A model generated the notes under the pieces. The model was not told where the DNA came from and did no database searches. It worked only from the letters and a program-made list of their open reading frames with translations. Below are positions 49,382 to 54,880 of a DNA stretch of 64,000 nt, piece by piece (position 1 is the first letter of the stretch; each line of letters begins with the position of its first letter). Origin of the DNA: Pelagibacteraceae bacterium AG-422-D23 (lineage in GTDB: Bacteria > Pseudomonadota > Alphaproteobacteria > Pelagibacterales > Pelagibacteraceae); the NCBI GenBank assembly GCA_003213615.1, contig QCMQ01000002.1, forward strand, positions 1 to 64,000, in the 5' to 3' direction. The translations under genes were made by a program, and so were the position numbers.

Positions 49382-50167
49382 ATGGTTTTAACAGCGATAC
49401 CAGTTGGTTTTGTTGCTGGATTATTTGGTATTGGCGGAGGGTTAATAACTGTTCCCTTTTTATATTTTATTTTTGGTTCTTTAGAAATTGATCCTCAATA
49501 TGTTATGCACCTTGCCGTTGGAACTTCCTTTGCAATTATAATACCAACATCTACAGTTTCAGTTTTAACACATCACAAATTTAAAGCTGTTGATTTCGAT
49601 ATTGTTAAAAACTATGGTTTGTTTGTTGTACTAGGTGTTGTTGTTGGTACTGCTTTTGCAGCTTCTTTAAAAACTAAATCTTTAGTTTTATTTTTTTCAA
49701 TTATGATTTTATTTTTAGGAATTTACTTATTGTTAATAAAAGAAAAGGAACAAAATATAATTGTTAAAATGAAATTACATCTAAAAGTAATTCTTGGTTT
49801 TTTTGTTGGGTTTATATCTGCTCCTATGGGTATAGGAGGAGCCGTAATGAATGTTCCTATCCTTAAGTTTTTTGGTTATTCAATAAATAAAGCTATAGGT
49901 AGTGCAGCAGCTATAGGTTTTTTAATTGCTCTATTTGGAGCAATAGGTTTTTTGATTTCAGGAAATTATTTAAACTCAAGTCTTCCATTAAGTATTGGTT
50001 TTATAAATATCCCTGCTTTTTTAATTTTCATACCGATTACAACTTTTATGGCACGGATAGGAGCTAAAACAGTTCATAGTATTGATAAGAATAAAATTAG
50101 TAAATTTTTTGGAATTTTTCTCTTAGTGGTTTCGATTAAATTTTTTTACGAATACTTAAAATTATAA
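49382..50167 (+). CDS. TSUP-family membrane protein (TauE/SafE type)
   Basis: Membrane transporter, 261 aa, seven to eight hydrophobic segments in two repeats, each with the family motif: GFVAGLFGIGGGLITVPFL at residues 8-26 and GFISAPMGIGGAVMNVPIL near 146. TSUP proteins export small anions such as sulfite or sulfoacetate, or import others. A sulfite exporter would suit an organism that desulfonates taurine, but this gene is about 30 kb from the tau genes and the link is speculative. Confidence 0.87.
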   Translation: MVLTAIPVGFVAGLFGIGGGLITVPFLYFIFGSLEIDPQYVMHLAVGTSFAIIIPTSTVSVLTHHKFKAVDFDIVKNYGLFVVLGVVVGTAFAASLKTKSLVLFFSIMILFLGIYLLLIKEKEQNIIVKMKLHLKVILGFFVGFISAPMGIGGAVMNVPILKFFGYSINKAIGSAAAIGFLIALFGAIGFLISGNYLNSSLPLSIGFINIPAFLIFIPITTFMARIGAKTVHSIDKNKISKFFGIFLLVVSIKFFYEYLKL

Positions 50168-50177
50168 CAAGCAAAAA

Positions 50178-50210
50178 AAAGAGGTGACTTCAGTCTCCCT
50201 CCATCACCTC
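50178..50210 (+). repeat. Structured repeat, copy 1
   Basis: AAAGAGGTGACTTCAGTCTC then, 5 bases on, TCACCTC. GAGGTGA (50181-50187) and TCACCTC (50204-50210) form a 7-bp stem with a 16-nt loop. The same blocks at the same spacing recur at 51490. It lies 10 bases after the TSUP gene. The rest of the 214-bp gap up to 50381 shows nothing else clear. Confidence 0.6.
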
Positions 50211-50381
50211 ACAATTTACACTAGTTGATTCTTTAAATATTCATGAACACTTATTAGTTGAAAATAAACATTATCAACCAATATTAACTCTAACAATCTT
50301 AAGTTGTATTTAGTTTTAAAAAAAACTCAATTTAGCCATACATAATATTTAGTGTTATTATTCTAATTGATACTTTTAAAA

Positions 50382-51452
50382 ATGGTTTCAATAAAAGACA
50401 TTAATAAAAATATTAAAAAAAATTTATTTGATCCAATCGATAAAACAAAAAATAAGTTTTCCTCAATTTTAAATGATTTTCAAAAAAACAAAGTTAAAAA
50501 AGATTTAGCATTACAAAAACAATTAGAAAAGGAAAAAAAAAGAGAATTAATTTTAGAAAAAAAATTAGCAAAAAAAGCTAAACAAGACGAACTAAAAGAA
50601 GAGAGAAAAAAAATCCTTTTTCAAAAAAAATTAATCATTGAAAATGAAAAACAAGAAAAAAAGAATGAAGAAAAAAGACAAAAAATAGAAGCTCAAAGAA
50701 TCAAAATAGAACAGAAAAAAATTAAAGACGAAGAAACGAGAAAACTCAGAGAAGAAGCAAGAAAGCTTAAACAGGAAGATTTAAGGCTAAAAATGTTAGA
50801 GAGACAAAGAATTAGAGAAGAAAATTTTAAGATTAAAGAGGAAGAATTAAAAAATAAAGAAATTGAAGCTCAAAAGAGAAGAGATGAAAAAGAAAAAGAA
50901 AGACAAGAAAAAATAAGATTAAAAGAAATTGAAAGGAAAAATAGACTTGAAGAAGAACAAAGATTAAGAGAGGCAGCAAGGAAGCTGAAATATGAGCAAG
51001 AAAAACTTAAAGAAATGGAAGAAAGATTAAGAGATCTAGAAACCGAAAGACAGCAAGAAATTCAAAGACAGATTTTAAAAGAAGAGGCTGAACAAAGGGC
51101 TAAGGAAGAGGAATTAAGAATTAAAGAAAAAGAACTTAAAGAAGCAGAACGTGAAAGAATAAATCGGGAAAATGAAAGGCGTCAAAGAGAAAGAGAGCTG
51201 AAAATAGAAGAGGAAAGACAAAAAAGAATTGAAGAAGAAAACGAAAGAGTTCGATTAGGTGAAATAGCTCAAAAAGAGAGAGTTGAAGAGGAAAATAGGC
51301 GAATGAAAGAATGGGAAAAAAAATTTGACGAGGAACAGCGACTAAAAGAAGAAGAGCTCGTTAGAAAATTTTACAGTGATGAAACTCTTAAAGAAGAAAA
51401 CTATCAAAGCAACAATAATCCAGAAACTAAGATTGATGATATAAAAAATTAA
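50382..51452 (+). CDS. Highly charged coiled-coil protein
   Basis: Soluble 356-residue protein (from the ATG at 50382; an upstream in-frame TTG at 50367 adds five unlikely residues). From about residue 45 to 330 it is almost wholly Glu/Lys/Arg/Gln with regular hydrophobics, reading as one long alpha-helical coil (repeats such as KLAKKAKQDELKEERKK and EEERQKRIEEENERVRLGE). No signal peptide, no membrane helix, one visible Trp. Could be a cytoskeletal or scaffold-like protein, or RNA-associated; composition alone would match many unrelated proteins. Flanked on both sides by the same short structured repeat. Confidence 0.7.
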   Translation: MVSIKDINKNIKKNLFDPIDKTKNKFSSILNDFQKNKVKKDLALQKQLEKEKKRELILEKKLAKKAKQDELKEERKKILFQKKLIIENEKQEKKNEEKRQKIEAQRIKIEQKKIKDEETRKLREEARKLKQEDLRLKMLERQRIREENFKIKEEELKNKEIEAQKRRDEKEKERQEKIRLKEIERKNRLEEEQRLREAARKLKYEQEKLKEMEERLRDLETERQQEIQRQILKEEAEQRAKEEELRIKEKELKEAERERINRENERRQRERELKIEEERQKRIEEENERVRLGEIAQKERVEEENRRMKEWEKKFDEEQRLKEEELVRKFYSDETLKEENYQSNNNPETKIDDIKN

Positions 51453-51489
51453 ATTTTAATTCATCATTTAAAATTGTAGTAGTAAAAAT

Positions 51490-51521
51490 AAAGAGGTAAC
51501 TTCAGTCTCTATTTTTCACCT
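51490..51521 (+). repeat. Structured repeat, copy 2
   Basis: AAAGAGGTAACTTCAGTCTC followed at the same distance by TCACCTT. It matches copy 1 (50178) in the blocks AAAGAGGT, ACTTCAGTCTC and TCACCT with identical spacing; the loop sequence differs. Lies 37 bases after the coiled-coil gene. Stem pairing is weaker than in copy 1. Confidence 0.55.
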
Positions 51522-51617
51522 TTAATAAACAAAACGCGATACTACTTAAATTTAGTAACAACAAATACTAGAATTTCATTTTTATTGTATAAAAAATTAT
51601 ATATAAAATAAATTAAA

Positions 51618-52324: not shown

Positions 52325-54880
52325 ATGAAAAAAATAGTTATTACTGGTGGACTTGGATATATTGGAACAGAGCTTTGCAAGATATACTCTGGTTATAGTT
52401 GGAACGATAAAATCATTGTAATTGATAATCGCTTCATATCAGAACGAGTAAATCAAATTAGAAATTGGAATATGGAATTTGTTCAAGGTGATATATTGGA
52501 CAAACAGTTGATAAAAAAATATTGTAGTGATGCAGATGTTGTTCATCACTTAGCTGGTATTACTGATGTTCCTAGGGTTAAAAGTGAAAGCAATGATAAG
52601 CATGATGAAAAAATAAGAGAAGTTGCTGAGGAAGGAACTCAAAATATATTAGATGTCATTAATGACGACTGCAAAATTATAATGCCTTCAAGTCATGTAG
52701 TTTATGAAGGTATTGAGAGGGTTAAAAATGATATTAGAGAAGACGAAGCTACTTCACCTGTATTATCTTATGGTAAATCAAAAGATTACAATGAAAAACA
52801 ACTTAAAGCCTCAGGAAAGAATTATATTATTTTAAGATTAGGTTCTGTTTATGGATATTCTACTGACACAGCAAGAATAGATATTATGGCTAACTTTTTT
52901 TCAAAAGTAGCTTCACAAAATGGTACATTAAAACTTTTTGCTGGAGGCAGACAGGTTAAAAGTCTAGTTCCTTTGATTGATGTTGCAAGATGTTTTAGGT
53001 TCATGGAAGAAAGAGAAGATCTTAAGTCAGAAACATTTAATTTAACAAAGGATACAGTTACGGTTAAGGAAGTTGCTGAAATTTGTAAAAAAATAAATCC
53101 AAAAATAACACTAAAAGAAACAAATGATGAAGTTCCTAACATGGGTTTTTCACTTTCTAATCAAAAGATTGCAGATACTGGTTTTGAATTTTTATACTCA
53201 CTAGAAGAAAGTATAAAAGAAATGATAGTGAAATGGTCTAAACAAGATTTAATTAAAGATTTAGAACATGTAAGAGATGGAACCGATGAATTTATTGATG
53301 AGAGAGGAAAAATTAGTAATCACGAATTAACTGAACCTGTTAACTTAATTGGATTGATTGACTCAAAAAAAGGTACTATTAGAGCAAATCACTATCACCC
53401 GCAACAAGAACAAAAGTGTTTATTTACAAAAGGTCAGATTATTGAAATTTTTCAAGACATATTAAATCCTAATTCACCAAAAATAACTCAAGTAGTTAAC
53501 GCAGGTCAATTATCAATAATAAAACCAAATGTTGCTCATACAATGGTTTTCACTAAAGATACTACATTTTTAAATTTAGTCAGGGGTGAAAGAGATCATG
53601 AAAATTATGGGATATCTCATACGATCAGGCACTGGTTCGTAGATGAAAAAGAAAGAGATATGCTTTTAAAATATTATAAATTTGATTGTAGATCATGTGG
53701 TGAAACTAAGCTTAAACGGGTTTTATCACTTGGTTACCAGCCGCTAGCAAATAATTTATTAAGTAAGAAAAATGAAAAAACTGATCTTTATCCATTAGAA
53801 CTAAATTATTGTCCAAAATGTCATAACTGCCAACTTTCTGTTGCTATTGATCCAAAAAAAATGTTTTCAAATTATTTGTATACTTCATCTACCTCAAAAA
53901 GTTTTAGAGAACATTTTTCTAAAGCTGCAAAAAAATATATAAGAGAATTTAAGTTAAAACCTAAAAAATCTTATATAATTGACATTGGCAGTAATGATGG
54001 TGTTGCATTAAAACCGTTTAAAGAATTAGGTTATAAAAAACTACTAGGTATCGAGCCAGCTAAAAATTTAGCTAAACTTGCAAACAAAAATAAAATTAAA
54101 ACTTTAAATATATTTCTAAATAAAAAAAACATTAAAAATATCAAAAAAAATGCAGATTTAATTCTTGCTTCAAATGTTTTTGCTCATTCAGATAACTTAA
54201 AAGAAATGGCAGAATGTATGATAAAACTTTTGAGTAGAAAAGGAACAATCATTATAGAAATTCAATATTTGCTTAATACATTAAAAGATCTAACTTTTGA
54301 CAATATTTATCATGAACATTACAATTATTGGTCACTAACATCTTTAAATAATTTTTTTAATCAATTCGATGTTAAGATATTTAAAGCAGAAAGAATAAAT
54401 ACTCATGGTGGTTCATTGAGAATTTATATAAAAAAAGATAAAAATATTAAAATTCAAAAAAGTGTAAAAGATTTAATAAACGAAGAAGAAAAATTTGGAA
54501 TTAAAAATTTTAAAACGTATCAGGATTTTGGAGATAAGATAAATAAAATAAGGTTAAATGTAATCAAGAATATAAAAAAATTAAAGCAGGATAAAAAGCA
54601 AATAGTTGGTTACGGAGCACCTGCCAAAGCCACAACTGCATTAAATTATTTTAATATAACTAAAGAAATTAATTATATTATCGAGGACAATAAATTAAAG
54701 CATGGGAAATTTGTACCGGGTGTTAAAATTCCAATATTTTCAAAAAAAAAATTAAAAGATCCAAATAATACAATTTTAGTTTTAGCTTGGAATTTTTTTG
54801 ATGAAATAAAAAATAATAATAAGAAATTATCTAATAATTTTATTAATATAAAATCCTTAGAGGAAAATAAAAGGAATTAA
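52325..54880 (+). CDS. Three-domain fusion: sugar epimerase/dehydratase - cupin epimerase - C-methyltransferase
   Basis: 851-residue cytoplasmic protein with three enzyme domains. Residues 1-300: extended SDR (IVITGGLGYIGTELCKIY; YGKSK as the Tyr-Lys pair near 150). Residues 315-445: WxcM/RmlC-like cupin (IRANHYHPQQEQKCLFTKG; IKPNVAHTMVF). Residues 450-851: sugar C-methyltransferase with zinc motif C455/C458 and C496/C499, SAM site IIDIGSNDGVALKPF and C-terminal INTHGGSLRIY and VGYGAPAKATTALNYF. The third domain is paralogous to the free enzyme at 24520. The fusion could channel a keto sugar through epimerisation and methylation. I do not know a characterised protein with this exact order. 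Confidence 0.82.
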   Translation: MKKIVITGGLGYIGTELCKIYSGYSWNDKIIVIDNRFISERVNQIRNWNMEFVQGDILDKQLIKKYCSDADVVHHLAGITDVPRVKSESNDKHDEKIREVAEEGTQNILDVINDDCKIIMPSSHVVYEGIERVKNDIREDEATSPVLSYGKSKDYNEKQLKASGKNYIILRLGSVYGYSTDTARIDIMANFFSKVASQNGTLKLFAGGRQVKSLVPLIDVARCFRFMEEREDLKSETFNLTKDTVTVKEVAEICKKINPKITLKETNDEVPNMGFSLSNQKIADTGFEFLYSLEESIKEMIVKWSKQDLIKDLEHVRDGTDEFIDERGKISNHELTEPVNLIGLIDSKKGTIRANHYHPQQEQKCLFTKGQIIEIFQDILNPNSPKITQVVNAGQLSIIKPNVAHTMVFTKDTTFLNLVRGERDHENYGISHTIRHWFVDEKERDMLLKYYKFDCRSCGETKLKRVLSLGYQPLANNLLSKKNEKTDLYPLELNYCPKCHNCQLSVAIDPKKMFSNYLYTSSTSKSFREHFSKAAKKYIREFKLKPKKSYIIDIGSNDGVALKPFKELGYKKLLGIEPAKNLAKLANKNKIKTLNIFLNKKNIKNIKKNADLILASNVFAHSDNLKEMAECMIKLLSRKGTIIIEIQYLLNTLKDLTFDNIYHEHYNYWSLTSLNNFFNQFDVKIFKAERINTHGGSLRIYIKKDKNIKIQKSVKDLINEEEKFGIKNFKTYQDFGDKINKIRLNVIKNIKKLKQDKKQIVGYGAPAKATTALNYFNITKEINYIIEDNKLKHGKFVPGVKIPIFSKKKLKDPNNTILVLAWNFFDEIKNNNKKLSNNFINIKSLEENKRN

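Follow-up and report, generated by a model that had tools for sequence, protein, structure and literature searches.

A predicted hairpin RNA of about 50 nucleotides in SAR11 bacteria whose loop is shared with pelagiphages

Introduction

Why should a SAR11 genome carry two copies of the same short structured repeat on either side of one gene? SAR11 is among the most abundant bacterial groups in the sea, has few transcription factors, and how it regulates after transcription is largely open. The locus lies in the window analysed here, which is a stretch of 64,000 nucleotides of contig QCMQ01000002.1 (Pelagibacteraceae bacterium AG-422-D23). The original prediction, made from the sequence alone, placed a repeat at 50178-50210 and 51490-51521, considered it a structured RNA or terminator family with differing loops, and proposed that it could be a family of 3' UTR elements of the TSUP and coiled-coil genes or the ends of a mobile cassette.

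Results and discussion

The repeat and its strand

The two copies are real and are found where the original prediction had placed them, in register. Positions 50156-50209 and 51468-51521 match at 76% over 54 nt, and AGAGGTNACTTCAGTCTC with up to 3 mismatches occurs twice in the window, whereas the mean in 100 shuffles is 0.05 and none of them has two. In the whole 1.28 Mb genome, the only exact matches are these two. However, two corrections are needed. First, the element reads on the minus strand, where copy 1 is GAGGTGAT-GGAGGGAGACTGAA-GTCACCTC-TTTTTTTT. Second, the shared block ACTTCAGTCTC is the antisense of the loop, so the loop is the conserved part of the family and only the 5' half of the loop of copy 2 differs.

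Copy 1 is a hairpin of 7-8 bp (50181-50210, minus strand), with arms at 50203-50210 and 50181-50188 and the 14-nt loop GGAGGGAGACUGAA at 50189-50202, directly followed by a U8 tract at 50173-50180 that resembles that of an intrinsic terminator. About 11 nt before the hairpin lies a conserved promoter-like block (TTCAAYTAWTAMGTGTT-N12-RAGAATCANNTA). Its proximal part, AAAGAATCAACTA, is at 50222-50234 and contains a -10-like AAGAAT (50228-50233), GAATC, which is a GANTC site (50227-50231), and TA (50222-50223). The upstream part, TTCAACTAATAAGTGTTCA, is at 50244-50262, at a fixed distance from the -10-like block. The hairpin strand with its U tract folds better than the opposite strand (-16.3 against -10.9 kcal/mol). 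The plus-strand reading, either as a TSUP 3' UTR or as an anti-SD loop, was rejected because the U tract is absent and the G-U pairs become A-C mismatches. A small ORF over the loop (GTG-x-GAG-GGA-GAC-TGA) was also discarded, since several members have TAG in that frame.

Distribution in the SAR11 order

Eight further exact or one-mismatch copies were found in near relatives, one per genome, and they shared the hairpin as well as the upstream block at a fixed distance. A covariance model (R1) found it in 122 of 201 genomes of the genus, almost always once, and a model of the diverse set (R3) found it in 248 of 398 genomes of the order at E<=0.05. Eight of these are weak, which leaves about 240, and all strong matches lie in two genera of one family. 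A hairpin-only model gives a sharp gap between real copies (39 bits or more) and chance (below 30 bits). About 93 of 142 family genomes searched have a strong copy, and about a third of the well-assembled family genomes lack a strong match, so the RNA is not essential to all. A complete genome of the sister genus g5 (G225) has none, and no divergent copy was found in 1.18 of its 1.21 Mb with up to 3 loop mismatches. Weak matches of model R2 elsewhere in Alphaproteobacteria were chance terminators without the loop, except in G739, a genome of a third genus that is 8% contaminated and has one divergent member with loop GGCGGGAGACUUAA after GACTCATATA. In this genome an IMES-2 RNA (RF02035, 126 bits; locus L374, 1690-1828, minus strand) lies about 140 nt upstream of the divergent hairpin, next to mnmA.

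Regarding known families, no Rfam 15 family reached its curated threshold over the element in the window, in nine other host loci or in 18 phage loci, and permissive scans gave only chance-level matches. A literature search for the loop sequence returned only unrelated papers. The element is unannotated in HTCC1062, where its copy is located at 1142921-1143037, between COG0659 and HIT genes.

Structure, conservation and genomic context

Seven of the eight pairs show changes on both sides (score 0.53-0.56 against 0.33 in shuffled data), with 51 double-change cells against 18 in shuffles and nothing comparable when the partner is slid. The core loop columns (GAGGGAGACUGAA, apart from its first G at 94%) are 97-100% conserved in 117 non-redundant copies, and only the first two or three loop columns depart from this. 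In the inner six pairs of the host copies there are 28 G-U cells and one A-C cell, so the functional strand is the minus strand of the window. It should be noted that this asymmetry alone does not separate RNA from single-stranded DNA, and that the stem and loop statistics come from related sequences. A pseudoknot of the loop with the sequence downstream looks possible in one subgroup (GUCUCC tail), but it is not general.

In 30 loci of the commonest such arrangement the upstream coiled-coil gene is divergent and the downstream TSUP gene is convergent, so nothing else is transcribed on the strand of the element. In the window these are the coiled-coil gene at 50382-51452 (plus strand, no Pfam match), which is divergent from copy 1 and convergent with copy 2, and the TSUP (TauE/SafE) gene at 49382-50167 (plus strand, PF01925). 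In other genomes the neighbours are pgm, HIT, DUF2061, a small lipoprotein-like gene or NlpC/P60. This context, together with the conserved block and the U tract, leads to the inference of a stand-alone RNA of about 50 nt at 50173-50222 (minus strand), whose start site is deduced from the -10-like block; no transcript data were examined. The U tract is present in 75 of 117 non-redundant host copies, whereas 42 lack it (e.g., loci L078, L067 and L180) and the formation of the 3' end is unexplained there. In such copies the tail after the stem is C-rich (UACCCCAUC, GACCCCUUC, ACCCCCCUAUC) and its role is unknown.

The upstream block lies 8-13 nt before the stem. The motif xAGAAT fits a -10 box, but no -35 box fits. 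GAATC and TA are 98-100% conserved in the 117 copies. The block does not define a regulon, as its exact match is found only at the element in the genomes tested and its matches are no more frequent than those of the reversed control. SAR11 has a CcrM homologue (PMC3973325) and GANTC is the methylated motif of a Pelagibacter genome (PMC12570018), so the feature expected of a CcrM-controlled promoter, a GANTC site at a conserved promoter position in a CcrM-bearing host, is present, although changes of transcription with methylation were not measured here.

GANTC-N3-TA is present in every non-redundant copy with sequence there except two, and both are the second copy in their genome (copy 2 of the window and the second copy of genome G306), which have also lost loop bases. 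Copy 2 (51493-51522, minus strand; 36 and 39.7 bits in two model searches) has the loop AAATAGAGACUGAA, one G-U pair in the stem, and GTATC at 51538-51542 in place of GAATC. It is therefore most likely a decaying local duplicate, although its stem still pairs through one G-U. On the other hand, genome G377 has two intact copies in tandem 480 nt apart (locus L247, hairpins at 2001-2116 and 2481-2596), which bracket a small lipoprotein-like gene as the pair of the window brackets the coiled-coil gene. Further along the window, at 52325-54880, one 851-aa protein joins an NAD-dependent epimerase domain to a zinc-binding and C-methyltransferase pair, an unusual fusion in a sugar-biosynthesis region.

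Considering these data, the interpretation given in the original prediction is partly supported. The structured RNA family is right, whereas the 3' UTR elements are not supported, since the element lies on the opposite strand, has its own conserved upstream block and changes neighbours between genomes. The ends of a mobile cassette are not supported either, because nearly all genomes have one copy instead of the many dispersed copies of a cassette or REP-type repeat. The absence of other copies and of covariation had been set in advance as the outcome that would reduce the similarity to a recent local duplication; for the family this is contradicted by the hundreds of copies in other genomes and by the covarying stem, but the pair itself does look like a local duplication.

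The same hairpin in pelagiphages

A search for similar DNA in 50,697 phage records unexpectedly found the hairpin, without the promoter, in Pelagivirus genomes between lysozyme and primase. Further hairpin queries with different stems hit only pelagiphages, always intergenic and in sense: HTVC019P, 022P, 131P, 201P, 304P, Jormungand, Ran and the metagenomic MedDCM S35-C6 before the primase, and HTVC031P, 142P and 168P between capsid and tail tubular protein A. Overall, the hairpin is found in 12 named complete pelagiphage genomes. Nevertheless, three of the first four pelagiphages show no hairpin (HTVC010P, HTVC011P and the first 50 kb of HTVC008M). In HTVC019P, a tRNA on the opposite strand (locus L461, 4045-4115) sits between the hairpin and the primase gene and may be the phage attachment site.

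In IMG/VR, each of the two loop types (GAGGGAGACUGAA and GCGGGAGACUNAA) was found in at least 120 contigs, while the reversed loop and the version with the host promoter gave none. Of 265 loop matches, 237 have 6/6 and 26 have 5/6 stem pairs, in 36 stem types, where about 2% would pair fully by chance. These counts are lower bounds from a sample that is not random, and the hosts of the contigs were not assigned one by one. Over 163 distinct flanks, G-U cells outnumber A-C cells 73 to 2, and the next start codon is mostly 9-34 nt downstream on the same strand. The gene contexts include an unknown gene/primase (the largest group, 99 of 163), lysozyme/primase, capsid/tail tube, and a 2OG-oxygenase-like/unknown pair and an HSP20-like/unknown pair (the last two named from sequence only), among others. 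Among the loop variants, positions 3 and 12 change together (A with G; C with U, C or A), which suggests a non-canonical pair inside the loop.

A natural control is found at the unknown-gene/primase position. There, the pelagiphage HTVC027P has the GGGAGACUG loop (GGCGCT-GAAGGGAGACTGGA-GGCGCC), whereas its relatives DSL-LC04 (a lake phage, recorded host Gammaproteobacteria) and 023Pt_psg01 (host unknown), not assigned to SAR11, have hairpins with unrelated loops, and HTVC023P has no room for one. The hairpin position is thus more general than the loop and, in this small comparison, the loop goes with the SAR11 phage. Moreover, phage and host loop types need not match, since HTVC019P (A-type) grows on HTCC1062 (C-type) and HTVC168P (C-type) on HTCC7211 (A-type). 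This favours a common partner and argues against simple loop pairing between the two RNAs.

A possible shared partner and other explanations

The explanation that is best supported, and in which we have reasonable though not full confidence, is that copy 1 is the gene of a very small stand-alone RNA. It would be transcribed on the minus strand from its own promoter, with an invariant GAATC site that the SAR11 CcrM methylase could modify, and in most species it would end at the U tract after its only hairpin. In this view, the working part is the nearly invariant loop, held by a stem free to vary as long as it pairs, and the loop is recognised by a trans-acting SAR11 factor, most likely an RNA-binding protein or ribonuclease. 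Unrelated SAR11 phages would place the same hairpin between their genes, mostly just before a start codon, to bring that factor to their mRNAs and use it in cis, and the host RNA would then most likely be a regulator or decoy of the factor. The conservation, the covariation, the strand, the genomic context and the phage copies rest directly on the sequences analysed, while transcription, promoter activity, control by methylation, the factor itself and the direction of the effect are deduced from them. No candidate factor was identified, nor does the analysis indicate whether it stabilises, cleaves or changes translation. A nearly invariant loop shared by host and viruses gives direct bait for finding this factor, the loop may also mark uncultured viruses as SAR11 viruses from sequence alone, and the GAATC site offers a specific test of methylation-controlled transcription in SAR11.

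A broader and more tentative reading, compatible with the data but less likely than not, is that SAR11 and its phages share an RNA signal of a new kind: one invariant loop, made by the host as a free RNA of about 50 nt under a methylation-sensitive promoter, placed independently by unrelated phages before replication and structural genes, and read by an undescribed SAR11 RNA-binding factor that replaces Hfq-type regulation in a streamlined cell. A profile search for Hfq (PF17209) gave no match in four SAR11 genomes (G000, HTCC1062 and two others), while the controls, including Caulobacter, were detected.

The main rival, which seems unlikely, is a trans-acting antisense RNA whose loop GGGAGACU base-pairs with host mRNAs, with phage copies that mimic or titrate it. 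A single-stranded invariant loop on a short terminator-ended RNA is typical of antisense RNAs. However, the exact complement of the 11-nt loop core occurs nowhere else in the genomes searched, one-mismatch sites are no more frequent than the control, and only one pair of them is orthologous (G231:174762 and G227:1095178, given as genome and position). In addition to the lack of Hfq matches, the phage copies are in the same sense as the host RNA. Concerning alphaproteobacterial anti-SD ('cuckoo') RNAs, their CCUCCUCCC-type loop motif is not found here, since on the strand inferred to be transcribed the loop is purine-rich.

Less likely still is a DNA element, where the hairpin would act in single-stranded DNA as a primase or replication signal or an attachment site, and the conserved block would be its protein site. 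Two of the phage contexts precede primase genes, and G-T asymmetry would also arise for a one-stranded DNA hairpin. Nevertheless, the U tracts in most host copies, the -10-like block, the stand-alone context and the proximity to start codons in phages all point to RNA, and other phage contexts are capsid/tail genes. Ordinary intrinsic terminators or mRNA-end hairpins, alike by descent or convergence, are about as improbable. The hairpin plus U tract of most host copies would fit them, and one phage context lies between capsid and tail tube genes, where T7 has its terminator. On the other hand, terminators do not need an invariant 14-nt loop or a conserved block upstream, the phage copies inspected lack a U tract, and phage relatives keep a hairpin at the same place with a different loop. 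Finally, a recent local duplication or cassette ends only, as the bracketing pairs of the window and of G377 might suggest, explains copy 2 but is already refuted for copy 1, which is found across a family, once per genome, in several contexts.

Comparison with known systems

The closest known elements in SAR11 are the candidate RNAs of Meyer et al. 2009 (rhtB, pntA, babIM and SAR11_0636 elements; PMC2704228), which are small conserved RNAs in GC-richer intergenic regions. The rhtB element is also a single hairpin, about half followed by U tracts, but it is located at 1297623-1297755 of HTCC1062, a different place from the element described here. The intergenic region that holds the latter (1142870-1143031, COG0659/HIT) is in their Table 1 with no RNA assigned and 29 BLAST hits, below their cut of 200. 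Hence, the element lay in a published candidate list but was not pursued. Yfr-type small RNAs of marine cyanobacteria are likewise short abundant marine RNAs with conserved upstream sequence (Yfr103 in PMC5069720), but Yfr19 scores only 19.8 here against a cut-off of 70.

Intrinsic terminators share with the element the GC-rich stem with a U tract in most host copies. This feature leaves membership undecided, since the tract is missing from the other host copies and from the phage copies inspected, whereas a loop free to vary, as a terminator would have, is not what is observed, since many stem types carry the same loop in phages. The conserved promoter-like block is a further difference.

CsrB/RsmZ-type decoy RNAs and the hairpins bound by CsrA/RsmA resemble the element in having GGA in a hairpin loop (GGGA in the invariant loop) and in a stand-alone RNA that shares its hairpin with mRNA sites near start codons. 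The element has a single hairpin per RNA rather than many, and a longer invariant loop; as CsrA was not searched for in the host, whether it belongs with the CsrA sponges is not settled by these features, and the resemblance is one of mechanism only. Phage translational operators and mRNA-processing hairpins, such as the T4 gp43 operator and the T7 intergenic RNase III sites, are also intergenic hairpins near phage start codons, and the lysozyme/primase position also holds a T7 processing site. What differs from them is the presence of the same loop in unrelated phages and in a host gene, which points to a host factor.
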